From contig NZ_LMMO01000001.1 of the NCBI RefSeq assembly GCF_001422285.1, positions 74,292 through 138,291 of the forward strand: DNA of 64,000 nucleotides, written 5' to 3'. Both the position numbers and the translations under genes were made by a program. The notes beneath the pieces are model-generated. The model did not search any database and had not been told where the DNA came from. It saw only the letters and a list, made by a program, of their open reading frames with translations. This DNA comes from Frigoribacterium sp. Leaf263. GTDB lineage: Bacteria > Actinomycetota > Actinomycetes > Actinomycetales > Microbacteriaceae. This document shows positions 21,316-28,523 of this stretch, piece by piece (positions within the stretch are counted from its first letter, which is position 1; each line of letters opens with the position of its first letter).

Positions 21316-21714
21316 TCAGTCGACCAGGACGACGGCCATGGCGGACTTCAGGGCCTCGCGATCGCGACGCAGCCGCGTGACCTCGGCCTCGAGTTCGGCG
21401 ATGCGGTCCGCGGTCGAGGCGTCGAGCGAGCCTGGACGCCGTGCCGGTGGGGGTCCGGCCAGGGTTGTCGACGGGCCCGTCTCGTCGGACGACGAGCCCG
21501 AGCCCGAGTTCGATTCCGGCGTCGCGACGGTCTCGGGGTTCTGGGCGCGCTCGTGGGCGCGGAGCCAGGCCCGCAGCGACTGCTCGCCGACGGCGAACTC
21601 CACCGCGGTCTCGCGGATGATGGCGCGGTTGCCCGGCTCGGACTCGCGTCGTTGCAGGACCCGAGCGAGCGACTGCTCTCGGACGGCGGTGCTGTACTTC
21701 TGCTCGAAAGGCAA
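21316..21714 (-). CDS. Putative HTH/coiled-coil DNA-binding protein (transposase-OrfA-like)
   Basis: Protein of about 132 residues from TTG 21714, which has GGGAG upstream; an ATG at 21774 would add 20 basic residues. A helix-turn-helix-like stretch (EFAVGEQSLRAWLRAH) is followed by a disordered Ser/Pro/Thr linker and a C-terminal coiled coil (RIAELEAEVTRLRRDREALKSA). The arrangement resembles the OrfA half of IS3-type transposases, but there is no OrfB or DDE domain and no terminal inverted repeat, so it looks like a domesticated or chromosomal DNA-binding protein. TGTCA/TGACA dyads flank it on both sides and may be its binding sites (inference). Confidence 0.6.
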   Translation of the reverse strand: MPFEQKYSTAVREQSLARVLQRRESEPGNRAIIRETAVEFAVGEQSLRAWLRAHERAQNPETVATPESNSGSGSSSDETGPSTTLAGPPPARRPGSLDASTADRIAELEAEVTRLRRDREALKSAMAVVLVD

Positions 21715-21810
21715 GGTGGTCTCCCGTGATCGATGCGGCCGACGTGCCCTTTGGCAATCGACCGTGATGACCATAACGCAGTCGTGTGGGCCGACATGCC
21801 ATCATCGTCA

Positions 21811-21822: not shown

Positions 21823-21895
21823 GGACCGCAGATGGTCGTACTGCTGCCCGGACGTCCGCCCGTCCTCCCCACTATCTCGGGCTCGACGCCTTAAG

Positions 21896-24800
21896 GTGGC
21901 TGGTGTGTGGCGCGCCGACAGACAGCATGACGACGACGACGACGGAACCCGTTCCGAGGTCGTCCCGACGAGCGCGCCCGGTGGCGCGCACTCCCCGCAC
22001 ACCGTGAGCCTCGGTGATCCAGGGCTCTCGGTCGGCAACGCGGCCGAGCCCGTCTGGGCGGTCTGGCGTCAGCAGCTGGGCGAGATCGGCGGACGATCGA
22101 CCCTGCTGCACTTCGGCGACGAGCAGCGCGCCCGCATCGAGCTGAGCACGACCCACCCGGGCGGTCTCGCGCAGTTCATCACCGGCAAGACGACCCTCCT
22201 GTCGAGCCTGATCCGCGACGACCTCGCGCTGCGCACCGCGCGGCTGGCGGCCGGCGAGATCGCGGCCAAGGGTCTCGAGCTGGCCACCGTCCGCGGCATC
22301 GACGCCGTGCACCTGGCGATCGGCGTCGCCGCCTGGTCGCACGCGGGCCACGACTACCGCGCCCCGGTGCTGCTCCGTCCGCTCGCGATCCGCCGGCACG
22401 GGCGCGACTTCGAGGTGAAGCTGCTCGGCAGGCCGTTCCTCAACCCGGCTCTCGTCGACGCGCTCCACGAGCAGTTCGACATCGCGCTCGACGCCGAGTC
22501 GTTCGTCGCCCTGGCCAGCCGCGAGGGGTCGTTCACGCCGAACCCGGTCATCGACCGGCTGCGCGGTCTGACGGCGCACCTCGAGTGGTTCACCGTCCAG
22601 CCCCGACTGATCGTCTCGACCTTCGCCGAGGTCGGCACCGAGATGGCGCTCGACACCCGCGAGCTCGGGCACCCGGTCCTCGACGCCCTGACCGGGAACG
22701 CCATGGCGCTCCGCCAGGTGGCCGAAGGGCATCGCTCCGCCTCGGCGACCCCGCAGGACGAGCGGAGCCCCGAGACCGACACCCTGCTGCTCGATGCCGA
22801 CCCCGAGCAGGAGAACGTGGTCGCGCAGATCGCCGCCGGCAACTCGGTGGTCGTCAAGACCCTGCCCGGCACGGGCGGCACGCAGACCATCGTCAACGCG
22901 ATCGGTCGTCTCGTGTCGCAGAACAAGCGCGTGCTCGTGGTCAGCGCCCGACGCGCGACCCTGAGCGGCATCGGCGACCGCCTCACCGAGGTCGGTCTGC
23001 CCGGCGTCGCCGTGGCGCCGAAGACGCTGCGACGCGACGTCGTGCGGGCCATCGGCCGCAACGAGAAGGCGACCCGTCCTCAGATGGGCGAGGTCGACGA
23101 CGCCCTGGTGCGTCTGCGCAAGGTGCTCGTCGACTACCGGGGCGCCCTCAGCAAGCGGGACCCGCGCCTCGAGGTCTCCGTGCTCGACTGCCTGACCGAG
23201 CTCTCGCGTCTCGCCCTGCTGCCCGCGCCTCCGGCCACGACCGCGCGACTCAGCCGCCGCAGCATCGAGGCGATGGTCGACGGCCGCTCACGGGTCGCCG
23301 AGACGATGGTCAACGCGGCGAACCTCGGCGAGTTCCGCTACGGCCCGGGCGACTCGCCCTGGTACGGCTCGCAGTTCACGGACTCGTTCGGCGCCGGCGA
23401 CGCTCATCAGCTCGCCAAGAACCTGCACCATCGCGACCTGCCCCGCCTGCTCGAGCGCGCCGGCGACGTCATCGGCAAGACCCGGATGCGACCGTTCGAA
23501 TCGATCGCCGAGCTGGGCGTCTACCTGCGCCTCCTGACCGAGATCCGCGACACCCTCGACAAGTTCCTGCCGGTGGTCTTCGACCGGTCGGTCGCCGAGC
23601 TCGTGGCGGCGACGGCGCCGAAGCGCGAGGCCCCCGACATGTCGAGCGCGAACCGGCGTCGGTTGAAGAAGCTCGCTCGCGAGTACGTCCGCCCCGGGGT
23701 CCACATCGCCGACCTGCACGGCGCTCTGCAGCGCATCCAGCAGCAGCGGTACGAGTGGCAGCGTTTCGTCGCCGCGGGCACGCCCCCCGAGGTGCCCACC
23801 GGCATCGCCGACACCCACGTGCTGCACCAGCAGGTCTCCCACGACCTCGAACGCCTCGACCGCCCGCTCGGTCTCACCGGCGACGAGGGGCTCACCGAGA
23901 TCGGCGTCGTCGAGCTGCAGCAGCGGCTCGACGCCCTGGCGGCCGAGAGCGACGTCCTGCAGAACCTGCAGGAGCGCACCGAGCTGATGACGACCCTCCG
24001 CGACCTCGAGCTGACCCCTCTCCTGACCGATCTCGCGAACCGGCACGTGCCCGAGCAGCAGGTCGCCGCCGAGCTCGAGCTCGCCTGGTGGCGGTCCGCG
24101 CTCGAGTCGCTGCTCGAGGCCGACCGCGCCCTGCTCGGGGCGAACATCGCCATGCTCGACCGTCTCGAGGCCGACTTCCGGCTCGTCGACGAGGCGCACG
24201 CCGCCGGCAGCGCCCAGCTGCTCGGCTGGCTGCTCGCCGAGAACTGGACGATCGGTCTGGTCGACTGGCCCGACGAGGCCGCCGCCCTCAAGCGCCTCCT
24301 GCGCCAGGAGCACGTGACCGCGCGCCTCCTGCACGACGCCGCCCCGCACCTCTCGCGGTCCATCGCCCCGGTCTGGCTGGCCTCGCCCTACGAGGTGCAC
24401 ACCATCGCCGACACGGTGCCGTTCGACACGGTCATCCTCGTGGACGCGGGCGCCACGACCATCGCCGAGAACGTCGGCGCGATCCGTCGCGGCAAGCAGA
24501 CCGTGGCCTTCGGAGACCCGGTCACGCAGACGCCCTCGGAGTTCGACATCGCGGTCACGCCGGGCAAGCGCCCGCCGTCGCACGACGACGCGACCCTCGA
24601 GGCCCTGCACGCCGACAGCGCCCTGGCGCGTCTGTCGACCCTGCTGCCGACGCTCTCGCTGACCCGCAGCTACCGGGCCGGCGGCGAGGACCTCGCCGAG
24701 CTGGTCAACCGCCGCTTCTACGGCGGGCGCATCGAGTCGCTGCCCTGGGCGGGGAGCTTCCTCGGTCACGGCAGCATCGCGCTCGACTACGTCTCGGGCG

Positions 24801-25672
24801 GAACGGCCGTGCCCGACCCCGAGTCCGGCGCCGTCGAGAGCGTCGACGCCGAGGTCGACCGGGTCGTCTCGCTCGTGGTCGAGCACGCCCGCACGCGGCC
24901 CCGCGAGTCGCTCATGGTCATCACGGCCAGCGCGAAGCACGCCGTGCGCGTGCAGCAGGCAGTGCTCACCGCGGTCTCGGGTCACAAGGACCTCACCGAG
25001 TTCGTGGTCGGCGACCGCGCCGAGCCGTTCATGGTGGCGACCCTCGAGCAGAGCGTCGCGCAGAGCCGCGACCACGTCGTCTTCTCGATCGGCTACGGCC
25101 GCACGCCGCACGGTCGGGTGCTGAGCGACTTCGGTCCGCTCGGGCAGCCGGGCGGCGAGCGTCTCCTCGCGGTCGCGATGACGCGGGCCCGTCGCTCGAT
25201 GGTGATCGTCACGTGCTTCCAGCCGAGCGACATCGACGGCGGCCGCATGGGCCACGGGACGGTCGCGCTCTCCGAGATCCTCACCGAGGTGCAGGTCCGC
25301 ACGACCGCGGAGCACGTCCCCGACGACAGCGACCCGATGCTGGTCGACCTCGCCCGACGACTCGAGGCCAAGGGCATCCCCGTGGCGCTGGGTCACCGCG
25401 GCAAGCTCGGCCTCGTGGCGGCGCACGACGGCGTCTGCGTGACGATCGAGACCGACACGACCCTCTCGCGCACGAGCCTCCGCGAATCGCTGCGGGCGCG
25501 TCCCGAGACGCTCCGCCGACTCGGGTGGCACTACGTCAGGGTGCACGCGTTCCAGCTGTTCACCGACCCCGATGCGGTGGCGTCGCGCGTGGCCGAGGTC
25601 CTCGGCATCGAGGGATCGCGCACCAGCGAGATCCCGAGCGTGCCGGCCAGCCAGCACGTCAACCGCGGGTGA
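21896..25672 (+). CDS. Superfamily 1 helicase-like protein with degenerate ATPase motifs
   Basis: Large cytoplasmic protein of 1258 residues. Helicase-like landmarks: a Walker A remnant PGTGGTQT near residue 325 (canonical PGTGKTxT, catalytic lysine replaced by glycine), a Walker B remnant ILVDAGAT near 851 (canonical DEA replaced by VDA), SLTRSYR, a motif V-like SVAQSRDHVVFS, and motif VI LAVAMTRARRSMVIVT near 1090. The C-terminal 90 residues resemble the Vsr/DUF559-like nuclease domain that closes many such helicases (RPETLRRLGWHYVRVHAFQLF), but only GVCVTIETD stands where the acidic catalytic motif is expected. The middle is helical. Either a pseudo-ATPase scaffold or a divergent enzyme. 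GTG 21896 is the chosen start; GTG 21905 is possible. Confidence 0.8.
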   Translation: MAGVWRADRQHDDDDDGTRSEVVPTSAPGGAHSPHTVSLGDPGLSVGNAAEPVWAVWRQQLGEIGGRSTLLHFGDEQRARIELSTTHPGGLAQFITGKTTLLSSLIRDDLALRTARLAAGEIAAKGLELATVRGIDAVHLAIGVAAWSHAGHDYRAPVLLRPLAIRRHGRDFEVKLLGRPFLNPALVDALHEQFDIALDAESFVALASREGSFTPNPVIDRLRGLTAHLEWFTVQPRLIVSTFAEVGTEMALDTRELGHPVLDALTGNAMALRQVAEGHRSASATPQDERSPETDTLLLDADPEQENVVAQIAAGNSVVVKTLPGTGGTQTIVNAIGRLVSQNKRVLVVSARRATLSGIGDRLTEVGLPGVAVAPKTLRRDVVRAIGRNEKATRPQMGEVDDALVRLRKVLVDYRGALSKRDPRLEVSVLDCLTELSRLALLPAPPATTARLSRRSIEAMVDGRSRVAETMVNAANLGEFRYGPGDSPWYGSQFTDSFGAGDAHQLAKNLHHRDLPRLLERAGDVIGKTRMRPFESIAELGVYLRLLTEIRDTLDKFLPVVFDRSVAELVAATAPKREAPDMSSANRRRLKKLAREYVRPGVHIADLHGALQRIQQQRYEWQRFVAAGTPPEVPTGIADTHVLHQQVSHDLERLDRPLGLTGDEGLTEIGVVELQQRLDALAAESDVLQNLQERTELMTTLRDLELTPLLTDLANRHVPEQQVAAELELAWWRSALESLLEADRALLGANIAMLDRLEADFRLVDEAHAAGSAQLLGWLLAENWTIGLVDWPDEAAALKRLLRQEHVTARLLHDAAPHLSRSIAPVWLASPYEVHTIADTVPFDTVILVDAGATTIAENVGAIRRGKQTVAFGDPVTQTPSEFDIAVTPGKRPPSHDDATLEALHADSALARLSTLLPTLSLTRSYRAGGEDLAELVNRRFYGGRIESLPWAGSFLGHGSIALDYVSGGTAVPDPESGAVESVDAEVDRVVSLVVEHARTRPRESLMVITASAKHAVRVQQAVLTAVSGHKDLTEFVVGDRAEPFMVATLEQSVAQSRDHVVFSIGYGRTPHGRVLSDFGPLGQPGGERLLAVAMTRARRSMVIVTCFQPSDIDGGRMGHGTVALSEILTEVQVRTTAEHVPDDSDPMLVDLARRLEAKGIPVALGHRGKLGLVAAHDGVCVTIETDTTLSRTSLRESLRARPETLRRLGWHYVRVHAFQLFTDPDAVASRVAEVLGIEGSRTSEIPSVPASQHVNRG

Positions 25673-26009: not shown

Positions 26010-26507
26010 TCAGCGGCTGCCGAGGGGTCCGTTGGCGCCGGTGCGGTCGGTGCCTTCGGCGAGCGGCGCCGCGCGCGAGCCCGACCCGGCGGCCGGCGCG
26101 CTCTGAGCGCGCAGCAGGTCGCGGATCTCGCTGAGCAGCTCGACGTCGGTCGGCGGCACGTCGGTCGGCGTCTCCTCCGCCGCCTGGCGCGCGAAGGTCC
26201 GCTTCAGGAGGTGGTTGACCGGCAGCACGAGGCAGAAGTAGACCACCGCGGCCACGATCACGAACTGGATCACGGATCCGAGCACGGCTCCGAAGAGCAG
26301 CTGGGCGTCGCCACCGTCGCCGAGGGTCGGGATGCTGACGATCAGGCTGTCGTCGAGCGAGGAGGCACTGAACGCCGCGCCGATCAGCGGGTTGAAGATG
26401 TTCGTCACGAGCGAGGTGACGATGGCGGTGAACGCGGCGCCGATGACCACGGCGACGGCCAGGTCGATCACGTTGCCGCGCAGGATGAACTCTTTGAAAC
26501 CCTTCAC
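26010..26507 (-). CDS. mscL: Large-conductance mechanosensitive channel MscL
   Basis: Pentameric membrane channel that opens under turgor stress, 165 residues. The N-terminal amphipathic helix and first membrane segment (FKEFILRGNVIDLAVAVVIGAAF) carry the gate-lining glycines and valines; the second segment is IQFVIVAAVVYFCLVLPVNHL. The C-terminal tail beyond residue 130 is longer than in E. coli, rich in Ala/Gly/Ser, with the charged bundle helix TDVELLSEIRDLLRAQ. GTG start with GAAGGAGC ahead. It follows the FmdB-like gene in the same direction. Confidence 0.96.
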   Translation of the reverse strand: MKGFKEFILRGNVIDLAVAVVIGAAFTAIVTSLVTNIFNPLIGAAFSASSLDDSLIVSIPTLGDGGDAQLLFGAVLGSVIQFVIVAAVVYFCLVLPVNHLLKRTFARQAAEETPTDVPPTDVELLSEIRDLLRAQSAPAAGSGSRAAPLAEGTDRTGANGPLGSR

Positions 26508-26583: not shown

Positions 26584-26955
26584 TCACTTCGCTGCGGCCC
26601 CGCCACCGGAGGAGGAGCCGGATCCGCTGGAGCCGGAGGACGGCGTCGACGACGACGACGACGCGCCTCCTGAGGTCTTCGCCTCGGAGGAGCCGCCCGT
26701 CGAGGGCTTGTCTCCGGAGCCGGAGGCCTTGTCGCCCGACCCGGTCTTCGACCCGGCGCCGCCGCCGGAGCCCTTGGCGCCGCGCGAGTCGGTGCGGTAG
26801 AAGCCCGATCCGTTGAAGGTGACGCCCACGGGGCTGAACACCTTGCGCAGCTTCCCCTGGCACACGGGGCAGACCGTGAGGGTGTCGTCGGTGAACGACT
26901 GGACGATGTCGAAGGCGTTGTCGCACTCGGTGCAGCGGTAGGAATACGTGGGCAC
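26584..26955 (-). CDS. FmdB-family zinc-ribbon protein
   Basis: 123 residues. The N-terminal zinc ribbon has cysteines at 8, 11, 29 and 32 in YRCTECDNAFDIVQSF and VCPVCQG. Everything after about residue 50 is a low-complexity Gly/Ser/Lys tail, presumably disordered. FmdB-like proteins are thought to be regulatory or metal-binding. It lies 29 bases after the 5-formyl-THF cyclo-ligase gene and before mscL, a gene order I associate with many actinobacteria. Confidence 0.9.
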   Translation of the reverse strand: MPTYSYRCTECDNAFDIVQSFTDDTLTVCPVCQGKLRKVFSPVGVTFNGSGFYRTDSRGAKGSGGGAGSKTGSGDKASGSGDKPSTGGSSEAKTSGGASSSSSTPSSGSSGSGSSSGGGAAAK

Positions 26956-26984: not shown

Positions 26985-27563
26985 TCAGAACTCGTGGACG
27001 CCGGAGGGCGTCACGACCCCGTCGACGGGCTGGTCGTGGCGTTCGCGGGGCACGGTGTCGACGTACTCGGGATCGAACACCACAGCATAGACCGGGGGCC
27101 GTTTCTCCATCGAGCCGAGGGTCTTGTCGAAGTAGCCGCGGCCCCAGCCCATGCGCATGCCGCCGTGGTCGATGAGCGCCGCGGGCACGACGATCAGGTC
27201 GACGTCGTTGATGGCCATGGGGCTCAGCACCTCGCCGACCGGCTCGGGCAGGTCGAAGAGCCCGCGGGTCTCGCTCTCGCCGTCGCCGACGGCCCAGTCG
27301 AGCAGGCCGTCCTCGCGCGAGATCGGGAACAGCACGCGGATGCCGTTCTCGAAGGCCCAGTTGACGAAGGGGCGGGTGTCGGGCTCGTCGGCCGTCGAGA
27401 GGTAGGCCGAGATCGAACGCACCTCGAGGCTCGTCGCGAGGTCGATGAGGTGCCGGGTGATGCCGACGCTCGCCTCGGCCCGATCCCGTCCGGTGCGGTT
27501 GCGGCGCCGCTGGCGGAGCTCGGCTCGCAGGGCGCGTTTCTCGTTGCCGACCTCGTCCGTCAT
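26985..27563 (-). CDS. fau: 5-formyltetrahydrofolate cyclo-ligase
   Basis: Converts 5-formyl-THF to 5,10-methenyl-THF using ATP, recycling the storage form of folate; cytoplasmic. 192 residues. The family signature MGWGRGYFDKTL is present near the active site, and the basic N-terminal helix KRALRAELRQRRRNR binds nucleotide and folate phosphate. ATG at 27563 fits the family length; the open frame continues far upstream through the antisense of galU but is spurious. It is divergent from galU with 66 bases between start codons. Confidence 0.93.
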   Translation of the reverse strand: MTDEVGNEKRALRAELRQRRRNRTGRDRAEASVGITRHLIDLATSLEVRSISAYLSTADEPDTRPFVNWAFENGIRVLFPISREDGLLDWAVGDGESETRGLFDLPEPVGEVLSPMAINDVDLIVVPAALIDHGGMRMGWGRGYFDKTLGSMEKRPPVYAVVFDPEYVDTVPRERHDQPVDGVVTPSGVHEF

Positions 27564-27616
27564 GCGCCCAATCGTAAGGGGAAGAATCGGCGCGCCCGCG
27601 AGGCCCCTCCGATCGG

Positions 27617-27622
27617 TACGCT
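27617..27622 (+). promoter_or_regulatory. Putative -10 of galU, leaderless
   Basis: TACGCT ends seven bases before the galU ATG. No ribosome-binding site precedes the start codon. Confidence 0.4.
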
Positions 27623-27629
27623 GACCCGC

Positions 27630-28523
27630 ATGGGCTTCTCTATAACCAAAGCAGTCATTCCCGCAGCGGGTCTCGGGACTCGGTTCCTCCCCGCGACCAA
27701 AGCCATGCCGAAGGAGATGCTGCCGGTCGTCGACAAGCCGGCGATCCAGTACGTCGTGGAGGAGGCCGTCAACGCCGGCCTGACCGACGTGCTGATGATC
27801 ACCGGCCGGAACAAGAACGCGCTCGAGAACCACTTCGACCACGTGAGCGAGCTGGAGGAGACCCTGCGCAAGAAGGGCGACCACGACAAGCTCGCCAAGG
27901 TCAACCAGTCGACCGACCTCGCCGACATGCACTACGTCCGTCAGGGCGACCCGCTCGGTCTCGGCCACGCGGTGCTCCGCGCGAAGATGCACGTCGGTCG
28001 CGAGCCCTTCGCCGTGCTGCTGGGCGATGACATCATCGACGCGCGCGACCCCCTCCTGAACCGCATGATCGAGGTCCAGGGCCAGAAGAACGCGACCATC
28101 GTCGCGCTGCTCGAGGTCGACCCGTCGATGACCCACCTCTACGGCATCGCGACCGTCGAGGAGACCGACGTCGACGACGTCGTCAAGATCACCGGCCTGG
28201 TCGAGAAGCCGGCTCAGGGCGAGGCGCCCTCGAATCTCGCCATCATCGGTCGCTACGTCATCCGCCCCGAGGTCTTCGACGTCCTCGAGAAGCAGGAGCC
28301 GGGCAAGGGCGGCGAGATCCAGCTGACCGACGCGCTGATGAAGATGGCCAGCGCCGAGGAGTGGACGGGCGGCGTCTACGGCGTCGTCTTCCGCGGTCGT
28401 CGCTACGACACCGGCGACAAGCTCGACTACATCAAGGCGATCGTGCAGCTCGCCAGCGACCGTGACGACCTCGGCGCCGAGCTGCGTCCGTGGCTCAAAG
28501 AGTTCACGGCCGGACTGGAGTAG
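27630..28523 (+). CDS. galU: UTP-glucose-1-phosphate uridylyltransferase
   Basis: Makes UDP-glucose for cell-wall and exopolysaccharide synthesis. 297 residues. The nucleotidyltransferase signature AAGLGTRFLPATKAMPKEM is at residues 11-29, with the lysine of VEKP and the GIAT/GGEIQLTDA motifs in the second half, all typical of GalU. Its ATG appears leaderless. The RimJ-like acetyltransferase gene follows 12 bases after the stop, so the two are likely one operon. Confidence 0.95.
   Translation: MGFSITKAVIPAAGLGTRFLPATKAMPKEMLPVVDKPAIQYVVEEAVNAGLTDVLMITGRNKNALENHFDHVSELEETLRKKGDHDKLAKVNQSTDLADMHYVRQGDPLGLGHAVLRAKMHVGREPFAVLLGDDIIDARDPLLNRMIEVQGQKNATIVALLEVDPSMTHLYGIATVEETDVDDVVKITGLVEKPAQGEAPSNLAIIGRYVIRPEVFDVLEKQEPGKGGEIQLTDALMKMASAEEWTGGVYGVVFRGRRYDTGDKLDYIKAIVQLASDRDDLGAELRPWLKEFTAGLE

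Follow-up and report, generated by a model that had tools for sequence, protein, structure and literature searches.

A helicase-nuclease-like protein of Frigoribacterium with degenerate motor motifs, near-universal and syntenic in its order

Several described proteins join a superfamily 1 (SF1) helicase and a nuclease in one chain. According to a 2020 survey of defence systems, Hhe reportedly has the architecture DUF4011-helicase-Vsr, and its helicase and nuclease halves are homologous to those of the protein described here, which is encoded at positions 21896-25672 (+ strand) of a 64,000-nucleotide (nt) stretch of Frigoribacterium sp. Leaf263 DNA, hereafter the window. The Hhe models, of 1797 and 1911 positions, are longer than the window protein. 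Its best database matches are ProA (NF058533) and PDC-S37, which span both the helicase and the nuclease halves; unlike these, however, the window protein lacks the catalytic residues and is near-universal and syntenic in its order. A further relative comes from Microbacterium testaceum, which we take to belong to the same bacterial family as the window's organism. As described (PMC3710099), this protein, MTES_1575, namesake of the nuclease domain, consists of an SF1 helicase and a Vsr nuclease, is about 2160 amino acids (aa) long and also carries transglutaminase, HEPN and wHTH domains. By the size given there it resembles four intact paralogues of our gene (L046-L049, below) and would not be an orthologue of it. 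Throughout, L denotes locus rows, G genomes and f family codes.

Helicase folds described as inactive are also on record. Utp25 of the small-subunit processome, a protein of DEAD-box type, is said to be a pseudohelicase; it shares this label with the window protein but belongs to eukaryotic ribosome assembly. PriA is an SF2 helicase, and we know of no nuclease domain in the PriA of Deinococcus radiodurans. According to the report on it (PMC4504706), this PriA has Arg at the Walker lysine position, neither hydrolyses ATP nor unwinds, binds DNA and gives evidence of an interaction with DnaB, Walker A and B being degenerate throughout a whole bacterial phylum. The degenerate Walker motifs are shared with the window protein, but PriA is of another family and has a known role. 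Both pseudohelicases and ProA/Hhe-like proteins are already known kinds. In the open-licence full texts of PubMed Central (PMC), few proteins have been published as pseudohelicases. Among the open-licence PMC papers listed, we found no literature on this gene (DUF4011, ProA, PDC-S37, Hhe, MTES_1575, PADLOC candidates and inactive actinobacterial helicases) and no precedent for a double pseudoenzyme of this size, near-universal in an order and with intact siblings at the same locus.

The window gene is open throughout over 1258 codons from GTG 21896, from which residues are numbered here. In alignment to intact relatives, motif I (Walker A; aa 324-331, 22865..22888, +) reads PGTGGTQT in place of PGTGKSQT, with Lys changed to Gly at aa 328. 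Motif II aligns without gaps, LVDAG standing against FDEAS, with Asp changed to Val 849 and Glu to Asp 850 (VDAGAT, aa 849-854, 24440..24457, +). Motif III (GDPVTQTP, aa 873-880, 24512..24535, +) keeps the GD pair and has lost QLPP, motif V is degenerate (QGDERD to VAQSRD), and motif VI is preserved as AMTRARR (MTRARR at 25178-25195, +). An earlier note on this DNA had read a Gly for the Walker lysine, an absent motif II Asp-Glu and an intact motif VI, and the alignments agree with it on all three. It had also named, as a refuting observation, a canonical GKT and DE elsewhere in the fold; a string and context check of the full protein found none. GKT at aa 97 was rejected as a P-loop, as it is not kept in other families, where AGR-type strings are commonest; GKT at aa 527 and DEA at aa 765 and 793 lie outside a GxxxxGK[ST] or strand context. 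Motifs I, Ia, II, III, IV, V and VI could be traced in this order by alignment to intact homologues, as in an SF1 Upf1-like fold, and at the Walker A Lys and Walker B Asp-Glu of an active SF1 helicase the protein has G328, V849 and D850.

The C-terminal MTES_1575/Vsr-like nuclease domain (about aa 1146-1235, 25331..25600, +) is degenerate as well. Its active-site Asp and Glu were identified from intact members and from what is known of the fold. At the first acidic position (aa 1172) there is a Gly, but Glu 1185 is retained, as is Asp 1187. The Pfam model of this domain gave 22.3 bits against a gathering score of 38.2. The nuclease-like C-terminus of the earlier note thus matches this model only below its cut-off, and the decay of most of the nuclease along with the motor had escaped that note. 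DUF4011, AAA_11 and AAA_12 were likewise found by Pfam, all below their cut-offs (DUF4011 with 19.0 bits against 22.2, on aa 132-187); L028, an intact homologue of the same order, passes the cut-offs for all four domains (MTES_1575 71.2 bits). The NCBIfam scores were 296.6 bits for ProA NF058533 (curated 1500) and 127.9 bits for Hhe NF042953 (curated 2000), and PADLOC reported PDC-S37 (309.5 bits) and also Hhe. These profiles and alignments place the gene product among SF1 helicases of the DUF4011/ProA/Hhe kind and identify its nuclease domain as one of MTES_1575 type.

We then looked at its distribution. The gene is present in 40 of 40 genomes of the first search and, besides the window's own genome, in 15 of 15 congeners. 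In the order sample, for which genomes of at least 95% completeness were requested and matches taken at E 1e-30, 197 of 198 genomes and all 70 genera had it; the sole genome without a match, G345, is a draft of 580 contigs, where a second search was also negative. Genomes of 0.8, 0.9 and 1.1 Mb (G275, G389 and G410) possess it too, again with a dead motor. A protein identity of 98% to Frigoribacterium sp. CFBP 13712 marks the window genome as a Frigoribacterium. Named related loci are, we presume from their genus names, from Microbacteriaceae, or come from metagenome bins with broader labels.

Motif states were read in 112 members of the order, which represent 18 family codes. Only seven (two of f5 and five of f17) have Lys, Asp and Glu, and all seven retain both tested nuclease residues. 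The Walker A Lys is missing in 105, of which 104 are also without the Walker B Glu; 62 of the 105 lack both Walker B acids and one keeps Glu only. Lys and both Walker B acids are absent from all 33 members read of the window's family, and in 17 of 18 counted rows of this family the first nuclease Asp has become Ala, Pro or Gly. Among the 105 dead members, both tested nuclease residues are kept by nine, one by 45 and none by 51. A recent loss confined to this gene, the other refuting observation named in the earlier note, is at odds with these counts. Because 15 of 15 congeners hold the gene and 33 of 33 family members share the losses, the substitutions are not a matter of chance. A sequencing error or pseudogene was rejected in view of the long frame in the window genome and in 15 of 15 congeners and the low ratio of nonsynonymous to synonymous substitution rates (dN/dS, below). 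One TGA is reported within the aligned range of L002, and one stop inside the aligned range was seen in at least 10 of the order rows listed, all ten still being open over more than 1200 aa.

Outside the order, matches above 400 bits occurred in 11 of 109 genomes of a class sample (9/9 of f33, 1/8 of f38 and 1/1 of f22) and in 4 of 91 of a phylum sample outside the class. Of these 15 proteins 14 were read: five have an intact helicase, and in the nine of f33 and f22 the motor is dead, with the Walker A Lys replaced by Arg.

The age of the loss was addressed with a tree (LG+G4, short search) rooted on intact paralogues. It comprises the 91 rows left after 15 near-duplicates had been removed from 106 eligible ones. 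Congeners L002-L016 and nine repeated, partial or unrelated rows had been excluded beforehand, and the tree carries long-branch warnings for L071 and for the join of f4 and f10. The intact forms branch off at the base, and a single clade (approximate likelihood-ratio support, SH-aLRT, 99) unites 68 dead rows of the order, L057 (G106, f17) being an additional dead row. The rooted tree and the motif counts together give the sequence side of what defines a pseudohelicase, descent from an intact-motif helicase and loss of catalytic residues; the biochemical side would be another function kept with neither ATPase nor unwinding. The groups f33+f22, f5+f17 and the 68-row dead clade can be joined in more than one way. 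The best tree attaches dead f33 and f22 to the dead order clade with a support of 44, and a tree with the order undivided fits equally well, at a cost of 0.06 log units (approximately unbiased test, p-AU 0.508). As inferred from the tree alone, two changes are required; if the gene follows taxonomy, f33 would have lost its motor separately, making at least three losses, as suggested by the family codes and the different residues in f33. L214 (G387; absent from the tree) and L057, both of f17, are dead copies in an otherwise intact family and probably represent independent, younger losses.

Despite these losses, the gene is under purifying selection for some function. Within Frigoribacterium dN/dS was 0.03-0.15 (five comparisons), which upholds the earlier claim of a pseudo-helicase maintained by selection, and 0.24-0.31 in two comparisons to Frondihabitans; the values for MscL, TIGR01777 and the cyclo-ligase were each above those of the gene in 7 of 7 comparisons. 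Constraint was further compared at matched divergence, that is, in pairs at 45-55% identity outside the motifs. Motor-motif identity was 0.60 in 113 dead pairs versus 0.77 in 13 intact pairs, and that of the middle domain 0.47 versus 0.43. On this measure the additional constraint on the motor motifs is partly gone, whereas the middle domain shows no such relaxation. H87, R107, D712 and E726 are retained in 54-55 of 56 dead genera and in 7/7 intact order members; they differ in intact relatives outside the order and are mostly missing in f33/f22. A572 and L611 are retained in 56/56 dead genera, 7/7 intact order members and 6/6 f33/f22 rows. As they are shared by dead and intact members, these features would have come with the version of the order (or of the locus) and outlived the catalytic residues.

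The true start is probably GTG 21905 (21905..25672, +, 1255 aa), because a -10 type TANNNT box ends 6-7 nt 5′ of the matching GTG in 68 of 72 related loci, against a background of 0.5% of sampled positions. Here the box is TAAGGT (21892..21897, +), 7 nt before GTG 21905; the alternative GTG 21896, three codons upstream, overlaps it. For this count 80 loci were examined, a start codon followed by TGG being present in 72 and not found in eight; four of the 72 do not fit the spacing. From the position of the box the gene probably has its own promoter and is read as a leaderless transcript. Scans of the locus for sigma-70 promoters and for terminators found none. The intact frame of the earlier note therefore stands, and its start, and with it the length of 1258 codons, is the less probable one.

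Around the motifs, the protein has an N-terminal DUF4011-like domain (about aa 57-240, 22064..22615, +), supported by Pfam and the residue table and carrying the order-typical H87, P88, G90 and R107. The RecA2 domain (about aa 911-1130, 24626..25285, +) contains motif IV (SYRA), the degenerate motif V and motif VI, and in the AlphaFold2 model it matches UPF1, Aquarius, IGHMBP2 and Dna2 with Z 12.6-14.5 over 145-172 residues. RecA1 is poorly modelled, so the assignment of this lobe rests on alignment. The middle domain (aa 401-833, 23096..24394, +) is predicted to consist of long helices; modelled alone, it reached a mean predicted local distance difference test (pLDDT) score of 86.5 and a predicted TM-score (pTM) of 0.63. 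It gave no Foldseek match against the PDB and BFVD at E <= 0.001, its best VIA Z of 6.8 is within chance level for helical bundles, and a sequence search of solved structures returned three chance-level matches only.

Downstream of the gene lie mscL (26010..26507, -), which is convergent, fmdB (26584-26955, -), a 5-formyl-tetrahydrofolate cyclo-ligase gene (about 26985-27545, -) and galU (about 27600-28523, +), names presumed from the protein families. Of 65 order loci, 58 have mscL or fmdB downstream, usually on the other strand; mscL itself was found in 45 order loci and runs convergently in 42 of them. The same neighbourhood is present in 7 of 8 f33 loci and in none of 6 other loci outside the order, which points to a single locus inherited by f33 and the order alike. 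Upstream genes vary, the widest cluster, UspA-like by eye, spanning four family codes. A partner operon was rejected, as the upstream cluster occurs in just these four codes and mscL downstream is convergent. Phage records held one distant match in 50,697; plasmid records held relatives in 336 of 72,556, distant and counted whatever their catalytic state, with one covering at least 80%. The downstream synteny and the leaderless promoter suggest a vertically inherited housekeeping gene and not a mobile defence gene.

How can a dead helicase-nuclease be so widely kept? We favour, at about an even chance, a scaffold or sensor independent of ATP hydrolysis, descended from an active helicase-nuclease and inherited vertically at a fixed locus. 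The ancestor, a protein of the DUF4011/ProA/Hhe kind encoded on the chromosome, would have had a working SF1 motor and nuclease. Its Walker A Lys and Walker B Glu would have been lost before most families of the order split, and the Walker B Asp and nuclease centre would then have decayed to a varying extent; as far as sequences can tell, the alignment and tree show this succession of motor loss and later decay. Retained in the sequence is the scaffold, with its DUF4011-like N-terminus, its large middle domain of helices and both RecA lobes, including the GD pair of motif III. We suppose that it is made constitutively, binds nucleic acid as a scaffold or sensor and takes part in the everyday handling of the chromosome or of RNA, where the RecA lobes would hold DNA or RNA and the helical domain partner proteins. 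By analogy with Deinococcus PriA, the closest precedent that has been tested, a non-catalytic nucleic-acid-binding role appears most likely. A fuller history, in which a helicase-nuclease of anti-phage type joined the core genome of the order, its motor was disabled once and early, its nuclease decayed afterwards and the order came to need the dead scaffold for a basic task related to chromosome or transcription, is put forward tentatively, its probability lying nearer to one third than to one half.

Several observations weigh against a simple non-catalytic scaffold. The dN/dS values of GalU (6/7 comparisons), FmdB (4/7, from short alignments) and RimJ (2/5) were below that of the gene. The motor lobes are not free of constraint, since in dead pairs identity is still slightly higher within the motor motifs than elsewhere (0.38 versus 0.34, 2016 pairs), and the ratio of motif to rest at matched divergence was 1.24 in dead and 1.51 in intact pairs, with overlap. 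The Walker B Asp, though not Glu, is retained in 42 of 105 dead members, and the PGTG-TQT loop kept in the window's family could allow residual nucleotide binding. The motif I loop is gone altogether, however, from families such as f9 and f4, and for this reason the members may not all work alike. Nor does nuclease loss appear complete across the order, because both tested acids are kept in the nine dead-motor members L026, L078, L079, L082 and L128 (f6), L098, L120 and L217 (f16) and L215 (f15). Motif V, a presumed nucleic-acid contact of SF1 helicases, is degenerate by alignment in the window protein. Finally, the AlphaFold2 model of the whole protein is poor (pLDDT 62.8, pTM 0.33), perhaps from an alignment holding only close homologues.

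Some of these points would fit other explanations. A changed site that still binds or slowly hydrolyses nucleotide, making the protein a helicase or switch with odd chemistry, would agree with PGTG-TQT, motif III GD and motif VI TRARR being kept in the window's family, with the residual similarity of the motor motifs and with the remaining Walker B Asp. We regard it as improbable, given that Lys and Glu are jointly lost in 104 of 112 order members and that the loop itself is gone in f9 and f4; moreover, changing Lys to Arg alone is reported to abolish the ATPase of Escherichia coli PriA (PMC4504706). Little credence is due to a nuclease with a purely structural motor: Asp1187 in 56/56 dead genera and the nine members with both nuclease residues (5 f6, 3 f16, 1 f15; 9/105) speak for it, yet 51 of 105 dead members keep neither residue and the first Asp is exchanged in 17 of 18 rows of the window's own family. 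A slowly dying gene kept by chance, to which the partial relaxation of the motor motifs might point, is very unlikely, indeed scarcely worth entertaining, in the face of the within-genus dN/dS of 0.03-0.15, a conserved promoter and long open frames order-wide, also in the 0.8-1.1 Mb genomes.

The remaining alternative concerns immunity. The earlier note had suggested a part in defence, and a core role in immunity, either as a dead sensor of phage DNA or as a dead regulator holding an active paralogue of ProA/Hhe type in check, would account for the nearest named families being anti-phage ProA (296.6 bits), PDC-S37 (309.5 bits) and Hhe. Intact second copies were found in 4 of 40 relatives: L046 (G005), L047 (G022), L048 (G029) and L049 (G037), intact-motif ProA/MTES_1575-type giants beside the dead gene with frames of 1999-2167 aa; a fifth relative holds a 378 aa fragment of such a giant, L050 (G011). 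Defence genes tend to be patchy and mobile, and the patchy occurrence of the intact giants is what defence genes look like. The dead gene behaves otherwise, being found in 197/198 genomes with synteny in 58/65 order loci, with a single distant phage match and a single plasmid match of at least 80% coverage. As it is near-universal while the paralogues occur in 4/40 relatives, it cannot mainly serve these, and its universality weakens the immune explanation, which we hold to be unlikely but deserving of attention. The defence role proposed earlier was not borne out by a near-universal, syntenic gene that is present in genomes of 0.8-1.1 Mb; DNA repair, also proposed there, or another structural role may still apply. 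The scaffold or sensor descended from an active helicase-nuclease remains our preferred reading.

A 1255-residue pseudoenzyme related to immune helicase-nucleases and yet near-universal in the order sample, even in reduced genomes, poses a testable question: what purpose can a helicase-nuclease serve, and be needed for, without either activity? The locus offers both live and dead versions for direct comparison, since f5 and most of f17 are intact at the same place and f33, outside the order, is dead there. For such genes the labels DNA helicase or anti-phage protein could mislead. The first of these is carried by a relative in NZ_CP116225.1 (381016-384252), a record of 415 kb called an Actinomyces oris plasmid, with 86% coverage and 28.6% identity.

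Two further observations were made in the window. Upstream of the gene, at 21316-21774 (-), lies a small protein that is IS3 OrfA-like by eye (HTH and coiled coil); it is conserved at this place in the congeners L002-L016 and in L017, which belongs to another genus, and is possibly a domesticated transposase part. Between 40001 and 44000 the GC content is about 0.63-0.64, against 0.68-0.75 in other 2-kb steps, and acquired DNA is possible there.

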